From Frankia casuarinae (GTDB lineage Bacteria; Actinomycetota; Actinomycetes; Frankiales; Frankiaceae): a DNA stretch of 64,000 bases. The stretch spans positions 4,402,001 through 4,466,000 of the forward strand of contig NC_007777.1 of the NCBI RefSeq assembly GCF_000013345.1. The letters are read 5' to 3'. The notes under the pieces are model-generated. The model saw only the letters and a program-made list of their open reading frames with translations. It had not been told where the DNA came from and ran no database searches. The first letter of the stretch is position 1. Each line of letters begins with the position of its first letter. This document shows, piece by piece, positions 2,196 to 64,000 of this stretch. The translations under genes were made by a program, and so were the position numbers.

Positions 2196-3866
2196 TCAGT
2201 CCCGCTGCTTGAGCAGGCTGACCTTCGCCGACTCGACGGCCCGCATCTCCTCCGAGCCGACCCCGGCGCGCACCTCGAGCACCAAGGGGGTGGCCGCGCC
2301 CTCGTGCGAGGCGGTGACCTGGATCGTCTGGTCCCCGCCCATCGTGAAGGTCACCTCAACGGGGGTGCCCAACGGGTGGCCAGGCGGAATCCCGCTGATG
2401 GAGCCGGCGACGATCACCTTGTTGTCGTCGATCGCCGTGGACTCGGCGGTGGTGCCCTGCTCGAAGACCCGGATGTCCACCTCGGCCTGATCGTCGACGA
2501 CGGTGTAGAAGGTCCGGGTGACGGCGATAGGCAGCGGGTCGTTCTGGTGGGCGAGGAAGGCCGCGACCGGTGTGCCCCGGTCCTCGGCGAAGATCCCGAA
2601 GCCACGTGACGTGACGTTCGTCACTTTCGTGCGGACGAGATCGACCACGGAGGCGGTCGAGAGTCCCGCCTCCTCGGCGCTGGCTGCGGCCGCCTTCTCC
2701 ACGTCCACGGCGTCGGCTGCGGCGAGTTCCTGGTCGGGACGTAGATGCCCGCTGGCGACCAGGTCCGCGTGGACCTCGCGCTCCAGTGCCTTCTTCTGCC
2801 CGTACACCGCGGCGCCCTTGGCGACGGCGAGATCGGGATCGGCAAGCCGAGAGGTGAGCCCGAAGGACTCCTGCAGCCGGCGGGCCACCGCCGGTGTCTT
2901 GCTCATGCCCCCCACCAGCAGGCACAAGTCGATCTTCTCGACACCCTTCTCCCGGGCTCGCGCCAGCACCGAGCCGGTCAGGTCGATGGTGCGCCGCAGC
3001 AGCGGGCCGGTGATCTCCTCGAAGACGGTCCGGGTCACCGGCACGCTTGTGCGCCTGCCGTTGTGCACGACCAGCACGTCGACGCTGTCCCGGCCGGACA
3101 ACGCCAGCTTCGCGTCCTCGGCCGCGGCCAGCAGCTCCTGCTCGTCGTAGACGTCGTCGAGCGGGTCGCCCGCGTCGGGCTGCGCCTCGGTGAACTTCTG
3201 CGCCAGGTAGCGGACGAGTTCGTTGTCCCAGTCCGCACCGCCCAGCTCGTGGTCGCCATCCGTGGCGACCACGGTGATCGCGCCCTCGCTCAGCCTGATG
3301 ACCGTGGTGTCGAATGTGCCACCGCCGAGGTCGTAGACCAGCACGGTCGACTCCTCGGCCCCGTCCTGGCCGAATCCGTAGGCGAAGGCGGCGGCGGTCG
3401 GCTCGTTGATGATGTCGACCACGTTGAGGCCGGCGAGCTCGCCGGCCAGCTTCGTCGCCTTGCGCTCCTCGTCACCGAAGTACGCGGGCACGGTGATCAC
3501 TACATCGGTGACCGGGACACTGGTCGCGCGTTCGGCGTCCGCAGCGAGCGCCTTGAGCACCAGGCTCGACACCGCGGCGGCGCTGTACTCCTCGTCATGC
3601 GCCACGAACCGCCAGTCCGACGCGCCCATGTGCCGCTTGACCAGCCGGGCGACATCGTCGGGACGGATGCGAGCCTGGCGCTTGGCCTGGGTTCCCACCA
3701 CGAAAGAGGTTGGGCCCTCCGCCCCAGTGTCGAACAGGACGACCGAAGGCGTCGTCGGCTGGGACTCGATGTTGCGGATCACTTCCGGTCGGCCGTACTC
3801 GTCGACCTGGGCAATGCAGGAGTAGGTCGTGCCCAGGTCGATCCCGAACACCTTGGTGCCTGCCAC
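2196..3866 (-). CDS. Hsp70-family chaperone (DnaK-like) lacking the C-terminal lid
   Basis: ATP-dependent Hsp70 chaperone, cytosolic. The 556-residue product carries all actin-fold ATPase signatures: GIDLGTTYS at the N-terminus, INEPTAAAFAYG, VYDLGGGTFD, and LVGGMSKTPAVARRL. A beta-type substrate-binding region follows, but the protein stops after one short helix (SEEMRAVESAKVSLLKQRD). Classical DnaK is about 610-640 residues and has a helical lid plus a disordered tail; both are missing here. It is transcribed after the GrpE-like gene (40-bp gap) and before the J-like zinc-ribbon gene. It is therefore more likely a dedicated paralogue serving this cluster than the housekeeping dnaK, which usually sits in a dnaK-grpE-dnaJ-hspR operon. 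Confidence 0.9.
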   Translation of the reverse strand: MAGTKVFGIDLGTTYSCIAQVDEYGRPEVIRNIESQPTTPSVVLFDTGAEGPTSFVVGTQAKRQARIRPDDVARLVKRHMGASDWRFVAHDEEYSAAAVSSLVLKALAADAERATSVPVTDVVITVPAYFGDEERKATKLAGELAGLNVVDIINEPTAAAFAYGFGQDGAEESTVLVYDLGGGTFDTTVIRLSEGAITVVATDGDHELGGADWDNELVRYLAQKFTEAQPDAGDPLDDVYDEQELLAAAEDAKLALSGRDSVDVLVVHNGRRTSVPVTRTVFEEITGPLLRRTIDLTGSVLARAREKGVEKIDLCLLVGGMSKTPAVARRLQESFGLTSRLADPDLAVAKGAAVYGQKKALEREVHADLVASGHLRPDQELAAADAVDVEKAAAASAEEAGLSTASVVDLVRTKVTNVTSRGFGIFAEDRGTPVAAFLAHQNDPLPIAVTRTFYTVVDDQAEVDIRVFEQGTTAESTAIDDNKVIVAGSISGIPPGHPLGTPVEVTFTMGGDQTIQVTASHEGAATPLVLEVRAGVGSEEMRAVESAKVSLLKQRD

Positions 3867-3906
3867 CGTCTAATTCTTCCCTTCACAAGCCTCGTACCTC
3901 CGCGGC

Positions 3907-5334
3907 TCAGCGCGATCGGTAGACCTCGGTCTCCGCCGGTCGGACGACCGTGGTCTCGCCGCGGACGAAACCCGGACGAACGGTACGAGCGATCGTCCCG
4001 TCCCGTCCCGGGTCGTCCGTCGGCACCCGACGCACCCCCAGGTGCCGCGCCGGGTCGAAGGTCCCGCCCGGCACCGCCGTGTACGGGCGGACGTCCACAG
4101 CGACATCGAGCACCTGGAGCAGCTGCTTACGCAGGATGCCGGCGACACTCTGCGGATCGTCGGCCCCCAGGCTACCCATTTGATCATGAAGTCGAATCAA
4201 CCCCCGCAGAAGGGGGGCCATGGCTTCGGTAAGCTCACCACTACGTAGCCGGGCATTCTCGGCATGCAATCGGTCCACGAGTTGGGTATCGTGACGCCGT
4301 AGCCGGGCCAGCTCGTCAACGCGGCTCGCGAGGCGTTCCAGCGCCACCGCCTGGACAGCACCGATCGAACCCACCAGATCCGTCCCGCCGCCGTCAGGGC
4401 CCGGACGGTCCACGGGGCAGTCCTGATCCGCCGAACCGTCCTGAGGAACCTGATCATCCTGAGCCGCGGTGCCGCCATGGTCGACCGGGCCGCGCTCCGC
4501 ATCCCGTTGATCCGGGCCCGTCGGAGACCGTGTCGGCGTCGCCGGTCCGGCGTGCTCGGCGCGCTCGGATGCCACGGCCGACTCCGGCTCGTCGGGCCGG
4601 ACCTCGTCGGGCCGGACCTCGTCGGGCCGGACCTCGTCGGGCCGGACCTCGTCGGGCCGGACCTCATCAGGCCAGACCTCATCAGGCCGGACCTCATCAG
4701 GCCGGACCTCATCAGGCCGGACCTCATCAGGCCGGACCTCATCAGGCCGGATGTCCTCAGGGCCACCCGCCCCGCGGTCCCCGGCCTCGGGACCGGTCTC
4801 GCGCCACTCAGCCTCCGGCAGGTCATCGGCCTCGCGCGGATCGGTCGCCTCGTACGCGGGCGCGCCCCGAGAGCCCGCGACGGAGCGGTGCTCCTCCCGC
4901 GCCCCATACCCCGATCCGGCATGGTCCCCGTAGCCACTCGACCCGCCGTGGCTTGGCTGCGAGGGGGACCATGCCGGGGCGTTCCGTCCCGGGAACCGGT
5001 CCTCTCTCGGCGGATGGGCGTCCACCGGAACCTGCCCTCTCCGGCCCTGTTCCCAGCCGGCCGCCCGCGAAGGACCGGCGTACGCCGGGTCGGCCTGGCC
5101 CGGATCGGCGCCGGTCACCGGCCCGCCGCGATCATCGGCGGAGTATCGTCCGGGCCGCTCCCGGCCTCGCCCGGAAGCCGGGTCACGATCAGGATGAGAT
5201 CGGTGCCCGGGGTGGGCCCGCTGGTCGCAGCTCGCACGGTCGGCGCGCGCCTGCTCGGGCGAGGGCTCGCGACGTGGCTGGAACATCGAGTATCGATCCT
5301 CCTCGCCGACGGGCGGCGGGACCGGATGGCTCAT
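3907..5334 (-). CDS. GrpE-like nucleotide exchange factor with expanded (RPDEV)n region
   Basis: 475 residues. The C-terminal ~170 residues resemble GrpE: a coiled-coil stretch (LASRVDELARLRRHDTQLV) and then a small beta domain with DVRPYTAVPGGTFDPARHLG and GETTVVRPAEVEVYRS-like strands. The first ~300 residues are low-complexity, acidic and proline-rich. They include eleven 5-residue repeats (RPDEV/RPDEVW) encoded by 15-bp DNA repeats at 4591-4755. It likely exchanges nucleotide on the adjacent Hsp70. Start chosen at 5334; an internal ATG (MFQPRREPSPEQ) is an alternative. Ordinary GrpE is about 180-250 residues, so the disordered N-terminus is unusual. Confidence 0.75.
   Translation of the reverse strand: MSHPVPPPVGEEDRYSMFQPRREPSPEQARADRASCDQRAHPGHRSHPDRDPASGRGRERPGRYSADDRGGPVTGADPGQADPAYAGPSRAAGWEQGRRGQVPVDAHPPREDRFPGRNAPAWSPSQPSHGGSSGYGDHAGSGYGAREEHRSVAGSRGAPAYEATDPREADDLPEAEWRETGPEAGDRGAGGPEDIRPDEVRPDEVRPDEVRPDEVRPDEVWPDEVRPDEVRPDEVRPDEVRPDEVRPDEPESAVASERAEHAGPATPTRSPTGPDQRDAERGPVDHGGTAAQDDQVPQDGSADQDCPVDRPGPDGGGTDLVGSIGAVQAVALERLASRVDELARLRRHDTQLVDRLHAENARLRSGELTEAMAPLLRGLIRLHDQMGSLGADDPQSVAGILRKQLLQVLDVAVDVRPYTAVPGGTFDPARHLGVRRVPTDDPGRDGTIARTVRPGFVRGETTVVRPAETEVYRSR
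4591..4755. repeat. 15-bp tandem repeat (11 copies) inside the GrpE-like gene
   Basis: Five identical copies of GTCGGGCCGGACCTC (4591-4665) are followed by five copies of the ATCAGGCC variant (4666-4740; one has a GCCAGACC change giving Trp) and one degenerate copy (4741-4755). The two variants are blocked rather than interspersed, which points to recent slippage or unequal exchange. The period is five codons, so expansion keeps the frame. Confidence 0.95.
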
Positions 5335-5349
5335 CGCGGACTACCGGCG

Positions 5350-6027
5350 TCACTTGCGGCCGGCAGTCCAGTTCAGGCCCCAGCCGTAGGCCTCGTCGAG
5401 CTCGCGGTGACCGCTGACGTAGCGGACCTCCCGGCTGACCTTGAAGTCGTTGCCGGTGTTGGTCAGCAGGGCGATGGCGCACATCCGGGCGCCACCGGCC
5501 TGCTCGTCCAGCCGGACCTCGATCGGGGCACCCTGCGCCGGAGTCAGGGTGACCACCGCGTCGGCCTGGTCGAACGAGGCCACCCCCTCGTAGATGAAGG
5601 CGAACACGAGGATGCGGCGGATCTGGGAGATGGCGGCGAGGTTCACGTACAGGTTCTCGCCACCGACCGCGGCGCCCGTGCGGTCGTCCGCGTCGAGGTT
5701 GATGAAGGGGGGATCCGTGAAGGAGCCGAACGCATCACCCAAGGCCTGGACCACACCCGCACGGCCGTCGGAGAGCTCGAACAACGCGGCGAGGTCGAGA
5801 TCAATGCCGCCGCCCGCGGCGCCCAGCACCCGCTTGAGGAAGCCGCCCTTCTGCTGGCCGCCGCCCGGCTGCTGGTTCCAGTTGAGGTTCACGTGCAGCC
5901 GCCCGCCACCACCCTGCTTGCTCAGCGAGACGGTCGGCGCGGATTTCGTCAGTGTCACCTTGCTCAGCGAGACCGGGCCGGAACCGGCCGCCGGTGTGGC
6001 GGGACGTTTGCTGTAGTCGATGCCCAT
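5350..6027 (-). CDS. TerD-family stress protein
   Basis: 225 residues with a TerD (calcium-binding tellurium-resistance) domain. The N-terminus is GIDYSKRP, followed by two SLSK-type strands (VSLSKVTLTK, VSLSKQGGGG). Then come VNLNWNQ, the acidic FINLDADDRTG and IDLDLAALFEL, and the C-terminal GWGLNWTAGRK. TerD-fold proteins bind calcium and are associated with membrane-linked stress responses; the biochemical role is not settled. The start has GGGAGCGG-type purines just upstream. It sits 15 bp before the GrpE-like gene and is probably co-transcribed with it. The inserted glycine/glutamine-rich stretch (residues about 50-60) is atypical of short TerD. Confidence 0.88.
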   Translation of the reverse strand: MGIDYSKRPATPAAGSGPVSLSKVTLTKSAPTVSLSKQGGGGRLHVNLNWNQQPGGGQQKGGFLKRVLGAAGGGIDLDLAALFELSDGRAGVVQALGDAFGSFTDPPFINLDADDRTGAAVGGENLYVNLAAISQIRRILVFAFIYEGVASFDQADAVVTLTPAQGAPIEVRLDEQAGGARMCAIALLTNTGNDFKVSREVRYVSGHRELDEAYGWGLNWTAGRK

Positions 6028-6191
6028 GATCCGCTCCCTCGCGGTAGCTGGGTGTCATCCATGATCAGGTGATCATCGCCTGGCAGGATCGGACGCCAGT
6101 ACCCGACGATGTCACATCCGCGGCGGCGCTCTCCAGACCGGCCACCCAGGCCCGGTGCGCCGGCCGGCTGTCGCCGCCCGGCGCACGGCCG

Positions 6192-7364
6192 CTACATCGG
6201 GGCGCCGACGGCCTCTCGTGGCTGCCCCGGGCCGCCCTCGTCCTCGCCCGGGACGGACCCGGCACCCGCCAAACCGCGCTCGGCGGACCGGTGGCGGATG
6301 GAGGACAGCAGCGACAGACCGATGAAGGCCACCCCGATGAGACCGGTGACGATCTCCGGAACCTCGGTCTCGATCGAGATGGCCAGGATGATGGCCAGCG
6401 CCCCGATCGCATAGTGGGCACCGTGCTCGAGGTAGATGTACTCGCCGAGAGTGCCCCGCCGGACCAGGTAGACGGTCAGGGACCGGATGTACATCGCGCC
6501 GATCCCGAGACCGGCCGCGATGACGAAGATGTTCTGGGAGATCGCGAAGGCGCCGACGACTCCGTCGAACGAGAACGACGCGTCGATGACCTCGAGGTAG
6601 AGGAAGAGGAACGCGGCGGCCTTGCCGGTGGCGAGCACCAACTTCGGCGGGCCGCCGGTACCGTTCGACCGGACCGGGGCCAAGCCTGCCGACTCGGCGA
6701 CGGAATCGTCGTCATCGTCCTCGGCGCCCACACCGCGGGCCTCGAAGAACTCGCCGAGTCCCCGCACGCCCAGATAGGTCGCGAGCCCCGCCACCCCGGA
6801 GAGCAGCACCTGCTGCTGGTGGTCGCCGGCGAAGGCCTGGCCGACCACCAGCAGGGCGATGAGCCCAAGCACGATCGGAACCACATCGAGCTGGCCCGCC
6901 CTGCGCAGCGGCTCCTCCAGCTTCTTGATCCACTGGATCTCCCGTTCGGGGTCGAACAGGAAGTCCAGGAACAGCATGAACAGGAAGATCCCGCCGAACG
7001 CGGCGATGGCCGGATGCGCGTCACCCAGTTTCTCCGCGTACCGGGCACCGTCGTTCAGCGCCAGGTCGAAGACCTCGAGCGGACCGAGATGCGCGGTCAG
7101 CGCCACGATGGCGATCGGGAAGATCAGACGCATGCCAAACACCGCGATCAGGATGCCGAGCGTCAGGAAGATCCTCTGCCAGAACTGGCTCATCCGGCCG
7201 AGGATCGTCGCGTTGATGACGGCGTTGTCGAAGGACAAACTGATCTCGAGCACCGCGAGGATCGCGACGAGCGCCGCGTTCCTGGGGCCACCGATCACCC
7301 CCGCCGCGGCCACCCCGATAACGGTGATCGCCAAGGACCATCCGAAGATTCGCAAGGCGTGCAC
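6192..7364 (-). CDS. DUF475 / TerC-like integral membrane protein
   Basis: Multi-pass membrane protein of about 390 residues. Family signatures include LEISLSFDNAVINATIL, FFGMRL-type helix (AVFGMRLIFPIAIVALTA) and EVIDASFSFDGVVGAFAIS; the paired FDN/FDG acidic membrane motifs match the TerC/DUF475 fold, thought to handle metal ions. The open frame extends to 7445, but homologues begin near LRIFGWSL. I therefore favour a GTG around 7364, with GGGAGG about 12 nt upstream; the residues before it are polar and unlike the family. A short acidic loop (AEDDDDDSVAES) divides the two membrane halves. Flanked by two TerD genes on the same strand. Confidence 0.88.
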   Translation of the reverse strand: MHALRIFGWSLAITVIGVAAAGVIGGPRNAALVAILAVLEISLSFDNAVINATILGRMSQFWQRIFLTLGILIAVFGMRLIFPIAIVALTAHLGPLEVFDLALNDGARYAEKLGDAHPAIAAFGGIFLFMLFLDFLFDPEREIQWIKKLEEPLRRAGQLDVVPIVLGLIALLVVGQAFAGDHQQQVLLSGVAGLATYLGVRGLGEFFEARGVGAEDDDDDSVAESAGLAPVRSNGTGGPPKLVLATGKAAAFLFLYLEVIDASFSFDGVVGAFAISQNIFVIAAGLGIGAMYIRSLTVYLVRRGTLGEYIYLEHGAHYAIGALAIILAISIETEVPEIVTGLIGVAFIGLSLLSSIRHRSAERGLAGAGSVPGEDEGGPGQPREAVGAPM

Positions 7365-7766
7365 GCCTACCAACACCCTCCCGGACCGGTCGCCAGACCC
7401 CGGCCGCGCCGCGCGGGCGGATCCGCGGTCCGTCGGATCCCGCATCGCTCAAGCATCGCCGGAGACCGCGTCGTCCCGCGGCCTGCTGGCCCGGTGCGGC
7501 GGTCGTCGGCATCGTAACTGCTCGTCTGGTGGGCACGACCTGACAAAAGTGCTACACCCGATGTGTATCGCTCTACCTGTACATGTCACCCACACACGAC
7601 CGGACCCATAGCATCTGGTCATTACCGCGCCGGCCGGCGCGGTCGGACCCAGTGACCCGGTCGGACCCGGTCGGACCCAGTGACCCGGTCAGACCCAGTG
7701 ACCCGGTCGGACCCGGTCGCCTGACCGAGCCCGACTGCGCATCCGGGGTTCAGACGTATCCGGGGT
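7365..7766. other. Intergenic region with GACCC-type tandem repeats
   Basis: About 400 bp between the DUF475 gene and the terD stop. A mosaic of 10-bp and 18-bp repeats built on CCGGTCGGAC and CCAGTGAC spans about 7645-7722. A 17-bp duplication begins at 7742. I see no gene. Simple repeats dominate the 3' flank of terD. Confidence 0.6.
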
Positions 7767-7775
7767 TCAGACGTT
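7742..7775. repeat. 17-bp duplication containing the terD stop codon
   Basis: Two copies of TCCGGGGTTCAGACGT(A/T), 7742-7758 and 7759-7775. The minus-strand stop of terD (7767-7769) lies in the second copy, so an identical TGA recurs 17 bp downstream, out of frame. Confidence 0.92.
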
Positions 7776-8342
7776 GACGCCGAAGTCGCGCGCGATCCCG
7801 GCCAGACCCGAGGCGTAGCCCTGTCCGACGGCTCGGAACTTCCAGTCCGCGCCGTGCCGGTAGACCTCGCCGAACACCATGGCCGTCTCGGTGGAGGCGT
7901 CCTCGGTGAGGTCATAGCGGGCGATCTCGCTGCCGCCGGCGCCGTTGACGATCCGGATGAAGGCGTTGCGGACCTGGCCGAAGTTCTGCTGCCGCGAGTC
8001 CGCGTCATAGATCGAAACCGGGAAGACGATCTTGTCAATCTCCGCCGGCAGGGATGTGAGGTTCACCGTGATGGCCTCGTCGTCGCCCTCACCCTCGCCG
8101 GTCAGGTTGTCGCCCTGGTGCTCGATCGCACCGTCGGGGCTCTTGAGGTTGTTGAAGAAGACGAAGTGCCCGTCCGACACGACCTTGCCGTCGGCCCGGC
8201 ACGCGATGGCGCTCGCGTCCAGGTCGAAGTCCGCGCCGGTTGTGCTCCGAACGTCCCAGCCGAGCCCGACCAGGATGTTGGTGAGTCCGGGCGCCTCCTT
8301 GGTCAGCGACACGTTGCCGCCCTTGCTGAGGCTGACTCCCAC
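7767..8342 (-). CDS. terD: TerD-family tellurium-resistance/stress protein
   Basis: 191 residues, the usual TerD length, full-domain. It begins [19 protein letters not shown] and contains [19 protein letters not shown], the calcium-binding acidic segment [27 protein letters not shown], and the C-terminal [17 protein letters not shown]. Start ATG at 8342 is preceded by GCAGGAGGAGCA, a clear ribosome site. Known family role: calcium-binding proteins of the Ter stress/tellurite systems. It is the first gene of the minus-strand stress cluster, so the region 8343-8450 probably holds the cluster promoter. Confidence 0.93.
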
Positions 8343-34170: not shown

Positions 34171-34605
34171 TCATTCCGCTGCGTCGGACGGAAGGACGGA
34201 CACCCCGTCGTGGGTGCGGATAAACGGCTCGAGCCGTCCGGCCACCGCGTCCGCCACCCGGATTGCGAAAGCCGGCACAAACCGCGTACGGACCTCGTCG
34301 ATCGACAACCAGCTGACCTCCGTCGCCTCCGCGGTGTCGGAAGCGATGACGCCGGTCGGATGGTGGCAGAGAAACACCATGGCAACCACGCCTAGGGGCA
34401 TGTTGAGGTACACCCCGGTCAGGCGGACGGGTTCGACGACCGCACCCGTCTCCTCCTCGACCTCACGGCGCAGCCCGGTGTGCAGGGTCTCACCGCGTTC
34501 GAGCACCCCACCCGGGATCTGCCAGGCGCCGATGTCCCGGCGGCGGATGCATAGAATCAACCCTTTTTCGTTGAGTGTCACTCCGGCTACGCTCACCGAA
34601 TGCAT
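34171..34605 (-). CDS. Nudix hydrolase
   Basis: 144 residues. An intact Nudix box fits G-x5-E-x7-REUxEExGU (GGVLERGETLHTGL followed by RREVEEETGA), preceded by a beta strand GLILCIRRRDIGAWQIPGG. Hydrolyses a nucleoside-diphosphate-linked substrate; specificity cannot be read. Its start is only 35 bp from the divergent TPR-membrane gene, so the promoters must overlap. Confidence 0.9.
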   Translation of the reverse strand: MHSVSVAGVTLNEKGLILCIRRRDIGAWQIPGGVLERGETLHTGLRREVEEETGAVVEPVRLTGVYLNMPLGVVAMVFLCHHPTGVIASDTAEATEVSWLSIDEVRTRFVPAFAIRVADAVAGRLEPFIRTHDGVSVLPSDAAE

Positions 34606-34640
34606 ATGCGAAACGTACCAATTGCCACGCGGAAGTCCAA

Positions 34641-35627
34641 GTGAACGGCGGCCTTTCTCAGCGGCTGGCGGAACTGCCCCCAGAGACCGACCCGGGGTTC
34701 GGCTCGGCCGCGCGGGCGTTGTTGACCGGGCCCGACGCGACCGACGAGGCCCTCACCGCGGCAGTCGAGAACCCCAATCTAGCGGAGCAGACGCGCTTCA
34801 ACGCGTTCTACTGCCTGCAGGCTCGGGCCTGGCGCCGCAAGGACCATCGCCGCCATCGGGCCAACACCGATCGATACCAGGCCCGGTTCGGTCGGCATCC
34901 GATGTTCTTCTTCATGCAGGCCGAGTATTACGCCTCTCTCGACGGCGATCCGGCAAATCTCGACGCGGCGCTCACGTTCGCGCTCGAGGCGGTGGACCGG
35001 CTCGGCGGCGTGCCTGGCGTGCTGCATCTCGCCGCCGAGATTATCGCGGACCGCCACGAACGGGACCCCGACAACGATCCACGCCTACTGCTCGACGCTG
35101 AGCGGCACGTCCGGCAGGCCATCGCGCTCAGCGACGGGCATTATGCGCGCTATCATGCCACCCACGCGCGCATCGCGACCCTGCGAGGGGCGTTCGCGTC
35201 CGCGCGGGCCAGCATCGCCCGCGCGATCGAGGACGAGGACAGTACGGGCGCCGAATACGCGCTTCGCATCGGCGACTACCAGCTCATCCGGTCCAGGATC
35301 CAATACGCGCAGGAGGCTGAGCGGCTGAGCGCACGCCAAGAGGAGGCTTCCCGCGAGCTGCAGCAGATCCGGAGTCAGGTCCTGGAGATCATGGGGTTAC
35401 TCGCGGCAGTGATCGCCTTCATCACCACCGCCGCGAACGTCGCTGCGGGGCAGCCGGCCCGACCGGCCGCCGGCCTTCTCACGCTCGCTGGCGGCGTGAC
35501 GTTGCTCGTCTTCTGGGGCTTTCACGTCCTGCTCGTGGGGACCGAACCGGCCCGGCGTCGGGTCGTCGCGGCGGTCGTCGGGACGATACTCGTGGTGGCG
35601 GGGTTTCTCATGACGGAGTTCTCATGA
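34641..35627 (+). CDS. TPR-like protein with C-terminal membrane helices
   Basis: 328 residues from GTG 34641 (GGAAG six bases upstream). The N-terminal ~200 residues are helical-repeat-like (AFYCLQARAWRRKDHRRH, AALTFALEAVDRLGG, AERHVRQAIALSDGHY, GAFASARASIARAIEDED). A coiled stretch (ERLSARQEEASRELQQIRSQ) follows, then three membrane helices (MGLLAAVIAFITTAANVAAG, LLTLAGGVTLLVFWGFHVLL, VVAAVVGTILVVAGFLMTEF). No named family. Immediately upstream of a PP2C-like phosphatase gene (about 20 bp gap), so they are probably co-transcribed and co-functional (inference). Confidence 0.68.
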   Translation: MNGGLSQRLAELPPETDPGFGSAARALLTGPDATDEALTAAVENPNLAEQTRFNAFYCLQARAWRRKDHRRHRANTDRYQARFGRHPMFFFMQAEYYASLDGDPANLDAALTFALEAVDRLGGVPGVLHLAAEIIADRHERDPDNDPRLLLDAERHVRQAIALSDGHYARYHATHARIATLRGAFASARASIARAIEDEDSTGAEYALRIGDYQLIRSRIQYAQEAERLSARQEEASRELQQIRSQVLEIMGLLAAVIAFITTAANVAAGQPARPAAGLLTLAGGVTLLVFWGFHVLLVGTEPARRRVVAAVVGTILVVAGFLMTEFS

Positions 35628-35646
35628 CCACGGTGGGGGCCAACGG

Positions 35647-36471
35647 GTGCGTGTGCTGCGGTCCATCAGCCGGTCGGACAAGCTCCACAATGAGGATGCC
35701 GCCGGTTCCCGCGCCGATGGCCTGTGGGTGATCGACGGAGCGACGCCGCTGCACGACGATCCGACGATCAGCGGCCGGTCCTCGGCGGCCTGGCTGAGCG
35801 GCGCGGCCGACGCCTTCCTCGCCACGGTCCCCTGGCGGGATAGATCCCTGCCCGAGGTGGTGCGGGAGCTGATCGCACATGTCCGCGCCGAGGGACGGCG
35901 CCTGGGGCTCGCCGCGGGTCGGTTCCCGACCGCCACGATCGCCCTCGCCCGGCAACGGGGCCCGCTACTCGATCTGTACCTCCTCGGGGACAGCCCGGTG
36001 CTGCTCCGTCATCCCGGCGGGGAGGTGGTCAGTTTCACCGATCCCCAGTTCGATGGGGTCGAAGAGGCGCTGCTCGAACCGGTCCGCGCCGAGCTGGCAC
36101 GCGGCATCGATGTCGCGCAGGCCTACGGACGGGCACACACGATGACCCGCGAACGCCGCCGGCAGCGCAACACCGCGGCCGGGTCCTGGATCCTCGGTGA
36201 CGTCACCGCTGCCGCCGACCACGCGTTCGTCACCACCATGCCGGTGGAACCCGGCACGGAGCTGGTGGCGCTGTCCGACGGCTACGCCCGGGCCGTCCGT
36301 CCCTTCAGCCTGGTCGCCGACGACGCGGCCCTTGTCGACGTGCTCGCCCGCGGCGAACAGGCCATACTGCTGGAACGGCTGCGGGCGGCGGAACGGGCCG
36401 ACCCGGACTGCTCGCGGTTCCCCCGGTTCGGGATGAGCGACGACGCGACCGCGCTCTACGCCCGGATCTGA
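35647..36471 (+). CDS. PP2C-like protein phosphatase
   Basis: 274 residues with the PP2C fold motifs. NEDAAG and LWVIDGATPL (metal-binding Asp-Gly), FPTATIALARQRG, LYLLGDSPVLLRHPGG, LVALSDGYARAV and MSDDATALYARI carry the conserved aspartates. Likely metal-dependent serine/threonine phosphatase. GTG start at 35647, soon after the preceding gene. No membrane segment. Its partner kinase is not obvious here. Confidence 0.8.
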   Translation: MRVLRSISRSDKLHNEDAAGSRADGLWVIDGATPLHDDPTISGRSSAAWLSGAADAFLATVPWRDRSLPEVVRELIAHVRAEGRRLGLAAGRFPTATIALARQRGPLLDLYLLGDSPVLLRHPGGEVVSFTDPQFDGVEEALLEPVRAELARGIDVAQAYGRAHTMTRERRRQRNTAAGSWILGDVTAAADHAFVTTMPVEPGTELVALSDGYARAVRPFSLVADDAALVDVLARGEQAILLERLRAAERADPDCSRFPRFGMSDDATALYARI

Positions 36472-63365: not shown

Positions 63366-64000
63366 TCATCGCCAGGCGTTGGACGTCCATGCCCAGTGGG
63401 CGAAGAGCCCGGGGCGTTGGCGGGTGATGCGTTGCCAGCAGGCCAGGGCCTTATGGAACGGTCTCAGCCGTTTGTACTTCTTGCGGAGCCAACGCACCAG
63501 GTAGGCGTTGATGCGCTGTAGGAGGGGAAGCAGCGCGGAGCGGTAGAACGCCCCGTAGTACTGCGCCCAGCCGCGCACGATCGGGTTGATCTTTCGTGCC
63601 AGCTCGTCGAGGGTGTGGCCGGTCCGCAGGTGTAGCCGCCATCGGCGGACCTGCCCGCTGACCTTCTTCTGGGCTTCCTTGCTGATCGCGGGCAGGAAGT
63701 TCGTGAAGAACTTCCCGTGCCTGCTGCGTGCCTTGCGGGCGCGGAAGGTGTAGCCGAGGAACGTGAACGACGTGTGCTCATGGGAGCCGCGCCGGTTGCT
63801 GTCCTTGCAGTACACGATCCTGGTCTTGGTCGGGTGCGGTCGCAGTCCGACCTGTCCCATCCTGTCGTCGAGCGCGGCCAGCACGTGGCGAGCCCGACTC
63901 CTGCTGTCGCAGTGCACGATCGCGTCGTCGGCGTAGCGCTCGAACGCGACGCCCGGGTAGGTCCGGGCCAGCCACGCGTCGAACGCGTAGTGCATGAACA
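63366..64000 (-). CDS. ltrA: Group II intron reverse transcriptase/maturase (partial)
   Basis: C-terminal ~210 residues; the frame continues past the right edge. YADD catalytic motif in FERYADDAIVHCDSRSRARH, then HTSFTFLGYTFRARKARSRH, the maturase (X) domain GQVRRWRLHLRTGHTLDELA and NPIVRGWAQYYGAFYRSAL, ending GLFAHWAWTSNAWR. No HNH endonuclease domain is present at the end. Completeness upstream cannot be judged. Confidence 0.93.
   Translation of the reverse strand, partial: FMHYAFDAWLARTYPGVAFERYADDAIVHCDSRSRARHVLAALDDRMGQVGLRPHPTKTRIVYCKDSNRRGSHEHTSFTFLGYTFRARKARSRHGKFFTNFLPAISKEAQKKVSGQVRRWRLHLRTGHTLDELARKINPIVRGWAQYYGAFYRSALLPLLQRINAYLVRWLRKKYKRLRPFHKALACWQRITRQRPGLFAHWAWTSNAWR

Follow-up and report, generated by a model that had tools for sequence, protein, structure and literature searches.

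Bacterial phosphatases of the PPM/PP2C family, such as PstP, PppA and tPphA, share a fold and a set of conserved aspartates, and canonical members carry the motif DGMGG. TPR proteins are helical solenoids, and protein phosphatase 5 (PP5) joins a TPR part to a phosphatase. In type 2 BREX/Pgl systems (PglW, PglX, PglY, PglZ, BrxD, BrxHI), PglW is a kinase whose autophosphorylation has been shown and whose activity Pgl defence requires (PMC4365076); a phosphatase would naturally complement it. No dedicated PglW phosphatase was found described in the portions of the Pgl/BREX literature at hand, and a BREX survey from 2026 (PMC12839542) nowhere uses the terms PP2C, Nudix, TauD, TPR, transmembrane or dioxygenase in its main text. 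Actinobacterial GAP1-N2 conflict systems contain kinase, PP2C and vWA genes (available portions of PMC7159879).

Here we analyse a gene pair of Frankia casuarinae within a stretch of 64,000 nucleotides (the window). The product of the second gene has the fold and conserved aspartates of the bacterial PP2C enzymes but differs from them in its weak family score (Pfam, 25.6 bits), in having a separate membrane TPR partner and, in most sequences of its family, in a DGAT or DGAS loop after the DG motif. The first gene is predicted to encode a helical solenoid that may be of the TPR kind, and PP5 is its top profile match, at a non-significant E of 0.078. Unlike TPR proteins it scores below the Pfam TPR cut-off, its solenoid is carried on three predicted transmembrane (TM) helices, and its phosphatase neighbour is a PP2C on a chain of its own. 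Relatives of the pair in a second actinobacterial family (called f17 below) belong to a four-gene cassette. Three such cassettes are embedded in type 2 BREX loci or adjoin them, but the cassette does not belong to the BREX core. As in the GAP1-N2 systems a PP2C gene occurs in a presumed conflict operon, but the four cassette genes include none for a vWA protein, kinase or GTPase. Our literature searches brought up no description of cassette or pair, nor did the available portions of PMC7159879, PMC12839542, PMC4365076 and PMC12717121. At a probability of roughly 0.5, we propose that the pair is a single signalling unit retained in Frankia, in which the TPR-3TM protein would dock a cytoplasmic PP2C at the membrane.

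The gene pair and its predicted products

The features of the locus are as follows (window coordinates).

34171..34605, - strand: divergent Nudix hydrolase gene, possible third partner (144 aa; Pfam NUDIX, 65.9 bits)
34606..34640, no strand: divergent intergenic region common to the Nudix gene and the pair (35 bp; sequence)
34641..35627, + strand: gene 1, TPR-3TM protein (328 aa, GTG start; ORF, homologues, AlphaFold2 model)
34641..35231, + strand: predicted TPR-like helical solenoid of gene 1, residues 1-197 (model, VIA-align)
35247..35444, + strand: predicted 66-residue helix 203-268 of gene 1, running into TM1 (~247-268) (model, hydropathy)
35463..35534, + strand: predicted TM2 of gene 1, residues 275-298 (model at pLDDT ~50-60, hydropathy)
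35550..35621, + strand: predicted TM3 of gene 1, residues 304-327, preceded by an Arg-rich loop (model at pLDDT ~50-60, hydropathy)
35647..36471, + strand: gene 2, PP2C-family phosphatase (274 aa, GTG start; Pfam, alignment, fold matches)

The first-pass annotation of this DNA had described two adjacent genes on the + strand about 20 bp apart, and the ORFs bear this out with a gap of 19 bp. An in-frame GTG lies upstream of gene 1 at 34575, but homology begins only at 34641. In nine relatives the junction between the genes is an ORF overlap of 44-47 nt (six) or a gap of 6-11 nt (three); since the ORFs overlap or nearly touch, translational coupling is suggested. Bases similar to those of the 35-bp intergenic region are found just 5' of the gene 1 start in several Frankia relatives. 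On the upstream side the neighbours in the window are NucS, HD, STAS, MurA and Nudix genes (Pfam). On the other side lies a cobalamin adenosyltransferase gene, followed by genes that read as ATP synthase subunits, and in Frankiaceae the usual site of the pair and its divergent Nudix gene is the interval from murA to the cobalamin adenosyltransferase gene. Elsewhere in the window, Hsp70-like and TerD-like ORFs (2199-8342) read as a possible tellurium/stress cluster, and the ORF at 63369-63998, truncated where the window stops, has a reverse-transcriptase-like YADD motif.

The assignment of gene 2 to the PP2C family held. It exceeds the Pfam PP2C_2 cut-off (25.6 bits against 24), whereas the homologue from one f17 genome (G256) falls just under it at 23.8 bits. 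The PP2C invariant positions D17, D30-G31, D115, D211-G212 and D265-D266 are kept in 12 of 12 aligned sequences, which were chosen from both families with decayed copies left aside; we take the aspartates to correspond to the known PP2C metal ligands. PppA and PstP are the top Foldseek matches (PppA E 2.7e-05), and VIA gives tPphA at Z 11.8 (rmsd 4.6, 202 aligned) and PstP at Z 11.6 (rmsd 3.6, 190 aligned), all from a model with a mean pLDDT of 60.5. In a search with the family profile PstP is the best solved relative (E 2.3e-4). By sequence, then, gene 2 is a divergent PP2C (PPM) phosphatase that retains the metal-site aspartates and is predicted to be active.

Gene 1 had been called a helical-repeat protein with three C-terminal helices and no known family. 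The three helices are found by hydropathy and in the model alike, and hydropathy concurs in the five sequences of the TPR-3TM family that were profiled. The AlphaFold2 model (mean pLDDT 76.9) comprises about ten solenoid helices followed by the 66-residue helix with TM1, then TM2 and TM3; 10-residue blocks of residues 1-200 have pLDDT 70-95, and the membrane part is of low confidence at about 50-65. The models of both proteins were built on alignments of two (gene 1) and three sequences, because the contig scan confirmed only two of 48 candidate stretches. The modelled solenoid agrees with the helical-repeat reading. Many TPR proteins are among the 50 VIA-align rows listed, at Z 9.6-11.9, a level that may be generic for helical repeats, and the best Foldseek E is 0.042. 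Among Pfam TPR models none matches gene 1 even when E values as high as 1 are allowed, and TPR_2 reaches only 19.2 and 18.3 bits, against a cut-off of 27, in two f17 homologues. Gene 1 has no family at cut-off in Pfam or NCBIfam and no match in PADLOC or PHROGs.

In gene 1 there are three Arg between TM2 and TM3 but a single one between TM1 and TM2. By the positive-inside rule, the Arg-rich TM2-TM3 loop and the TPR part are thus probably cytoplasmic, on the same side as the soluble PP2C. The predicted combination of TPR-like domain, long helix, three TM helices and positive-inside topology fits membrane docking. We propose that the cytoplasmic TPR-like domain would serve as a docking platform for the soluble PP2C, which would then act on phosphorylated proteins at the membrane.

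Conservation and decay in Frankiaceae

The first-pass annotation staked its idea of a membrane-docked phosphatase complex on the pair being conserved in relatives, and it is, in eight of 35 Frankiaceae genomes and in seven of 297 f17 genomes. In the eight (sample G000-G034) the genes are adjacent, on the same strand, open and motif-complete. Gene 1 is 64-86% identical in nine relatives; Frankia sp. QA3 and AiPs1 are named relatives among the matches. A full-length open TPR-3TM gene is present in ten genomes (G000, G007, G009, G010, G012, G017, G025, G028, G031, G032), in two of which the PP2C gene is broken, being scrambled in the middle (G007) or mostly deleted (G031). Nine genomes have a long PP2C gene and no full-length TPR gene. 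In these the TPR gene has a frameshift near its start (G004), one stop (G030), or is reduced to fragments or by an internal deletion (G003, G005, G011, G022); from G013, G024 and G034 the homology search returned no match to it, and a long ORF that reads as methylmalonyl-CoA mutase occupies the expected TPR position in the last two. Several genomes with a broken TPR gene are draft assemblies, in which single-base lesions may be sequencing errors. The other 16 genomes hold fragments, a distant PP2C (G020) or nothing; a short match in G033 is probably a TPR remnant adjoining a PP2C remnant. Because intact, broken and missing copies are mixed across the 35 genomes, the pair was probably present early in Frankiaceae and then lost many times.

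A 423-aa open frame in Frankia sp. QA3, considered as a domain-swapped TPR gene, was rejected: a deletion (L052:5529-5990) fuses fragments of the Nudix and TPR-3TM genes, and the PP2C gene is still open. A separate stretch (L084:6045-8133), which we presume to be an integrative element from its appearance, carries a diverged PP2C-like gene beside a GntR-type regulator and a Nudix gene 56% identical to that of the window.

Estimates of dN/dS are 0.09-0.21 for gene 1 (NG86, 15 pairs, six genomes) and 0.24-0.48 for gene 2 (36 pairs, nine genomes); they are approximate, since NG86 was applied to divergent pairs and the sets include G004 with its frameshifted TPR gene and G007 with its scrambled PP2C gene. 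On these values both genes are under purifying selection and so are not chance ORFs, and the TPR gene is the more constrained.

This record bears on two other readings of the locus. The Frankia locus could be the decaying remnant of a cassette with little present function, as would accord with a full-length open TPR gene in only ten of 35 genomes, with its frameshifted, truncated or absent state elsewhere and with a Nudix gene whose matches are split or incomplete in several genomes; the constraint on the TPR gene speaks against this, and we regard it as distinctly improbable. Alternatively, the phosphatase works alone, the TPR-3TM protein is an independent neighbour and the gene order reflects only a shared promoter. 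Nine of 35 genomes with a long PP2C gene and no full-length TPR gene fit this idea, as does a PP2C dN/dS below 0.5 even with the TPR-deficient G003, G005 and G011 included, a value that may record older constraint. Yet the adjacency recurs in f17 at different sites, despite identities of only 31-36% (TPR) and 19-25% (PP2C), and we think a lone phosphatase unlikely. Strict mutual dependence is disfavoured, because a long PP2C gene persists in nine genomes without a full-length TPR gene, and in two others the TPR gene stands beside a broken PP2C gene.

A four-gene cassette in f17 and its type 2 BREX context

A profile search found TPR-3TM carriers in seven of 297 f17 genomes, from six genera; their gene 1 homologues were aligned in tblastn pieces. 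In all seven the gene order is TauD-like dioxygenase, TPR-3TM, PP2C, Nudix, with Pfam names checked on some carriers. The cassette is complete by homology in five (G256, G430, G579, G416, G418); a deletion joins TauD and TPR in G456, and TPR and PP2C in G591. The f17 Nudix protein is of another subfamily, only 26-31% identical to that of Frankia. TauD gave no match at the Frankia loci examined, nor, with one cassette protein as query, in the window's genome. Frankiaceae hold the pair plus the divergent Nudix gene. The Nudix and TauD partners and the defence-locus context of the relatives are additions to the first-pass annotation.

The GC content of the cassette is under that of both flanks in six of the seven carriers, and the flanks vary among genomes, save for some genes common to the surroundings of G418 and G456. 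Together with the scattered distribution, this points to horizontal transfer of a mobile cassette. Of 393 genomes searched at class level, 21 matched at E 0.01 and 19 at E 0.001, strongly only in Frankiaceae and G256; in a phylum sample of 296 genomes the window's own was the sole match. Because such wide searches follow up just a handful of first-look candidates in each genome, distant relatives could have escaped them. Weak matches in G019, G054, G183 and G367 and at a second G579 site (E 2.7e-4 to 6e-3) were judged to be chance and were not counted. The window protein had no homologue in the plasmid or phage collections, nor the G256 protein in the plasmid collection.

In three of the seven carriers (G416, G579, G591) a gap of 106-557 bp separates the cassette from a BREX core gene on the same strand. 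In G416 (L133) pglW and pglX precede the cassette, whose TauD gene starts 113 bp past pglX; then come ~3.7 kb of other genes, an AbiL-like piece among them, followed by pglY, pglZ, brxD and brxHI. In G579 (L132) the cassette is followed after 106 bp by pglY, pglZ, brxD and brxHI, pglW and pglX being outside the search. In G591 (L136) the damaged cassette is followed after 557 bp by pglW and, farther on, by pglX and pglY, and DrmA and PDC-S06 genes are near. PglY occurs in 75 of 297 f17 genomes (E 1e-50), and these three are the only carriers that have it. The chance of three adjacencies in seven was estimated at ~2e-8, a figure that assumes a 22-kb target and ignores the clustering of defence genes. 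Against PADLOC, one f17 cassette Nudix protein (L134:5324-5788) matched the candidate-defence model PDC-S07 at 56.8 bits; the TPR, PP2C and TauD proteins gave no defence match of note, only Cas56g at 18.3 bits.

It is conceivable that the cassette is a passenger with a role of its own, perhaps metabolic or in stress, that lands in islands, defence islands included, and has no functional link to BREX. PglY gave no match in four of the seven carriers, which thus show no BREX link, and the Frankia pair sits among housekeeping genes. The low GC also fits. One flanking protein from each of three carriers without a PglY match was compared with PADLOC: those of G256 and G456 matched nothing, and that of G418 gave only a weak mad2 hit (16.3 bits). 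The close, same-strand placement in every PglY-bearing carrier argues the other way, and on balance we find this reading somewhat unlikely.

In the window's genome, a single contig of 5,433,628 bp, PglY lies 0.94 Mb from the pair. The window pair is thus not in or beside a BREX-2 locus, and for it a defence role is something we can only infer. Long ORFs beside this PglY (L172 and L173, 3484000-3516000) resemble other BREX-2 core genes. PglY is found in 14 of 35 Frankiaceae genomes; its contig differs from that of the pair, except in single-contig G000 and G017, where it lies far from the pair. Its co-occurrence with the TPR gene in Frankiaceae (seven of ten against seven of 25) is not significant (Fisher p 0.053, genus-stratified p 0.14). 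With the frameshifted gene of G004 counted as full length it becomes eight of 11 against six of 24 (p 0.011, genus-stratified p 0.077), and counting the G030 TPR gene as intact lowers the p values. The test was made after the pattern had been noticed, and no conclusion was rested on it.

A proposed membrane-docked phosphatase and its possible link to bacterial immunity

Our preferred reading remains a signalling unit in which the PP2C would dock on a membrane-anchored TPR domain. In f17, the cassette that carries it would move between genomes and sometimes settle in or beside type 2 BREX (Pgl) loci, perhaps as a mobile signalling module linked to phage defence. A stronger version, which we hold to be doubtful, makes TauD/TPR-3TM/PP2C/Nudix an undescribed mobile defence module: the phosphatase would oppose or reset PglW, the Nudix hydrolase and dioxygenase would handle a small-molecule signal, and the reduced Frankia version would serve BREX-2 in trans. 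The link to PglW is a hypothesis, one made attractive by the dependence of Pgl defence on this kinase (PMC4365076).

The recurrence of a conserved, predicted membrane-anchored PP2C cassette in BREX-2 loci offers a testable candidate for a PglW phosphatase and hints that the pair is a new signalling partner for bacterial immunity. Even without a link to BREX, the TPR-3TM family is a conserved phosphatase partner that has no name in the family libraries searched (Pfam, NCBIfam, PADLOC and PHROGs).
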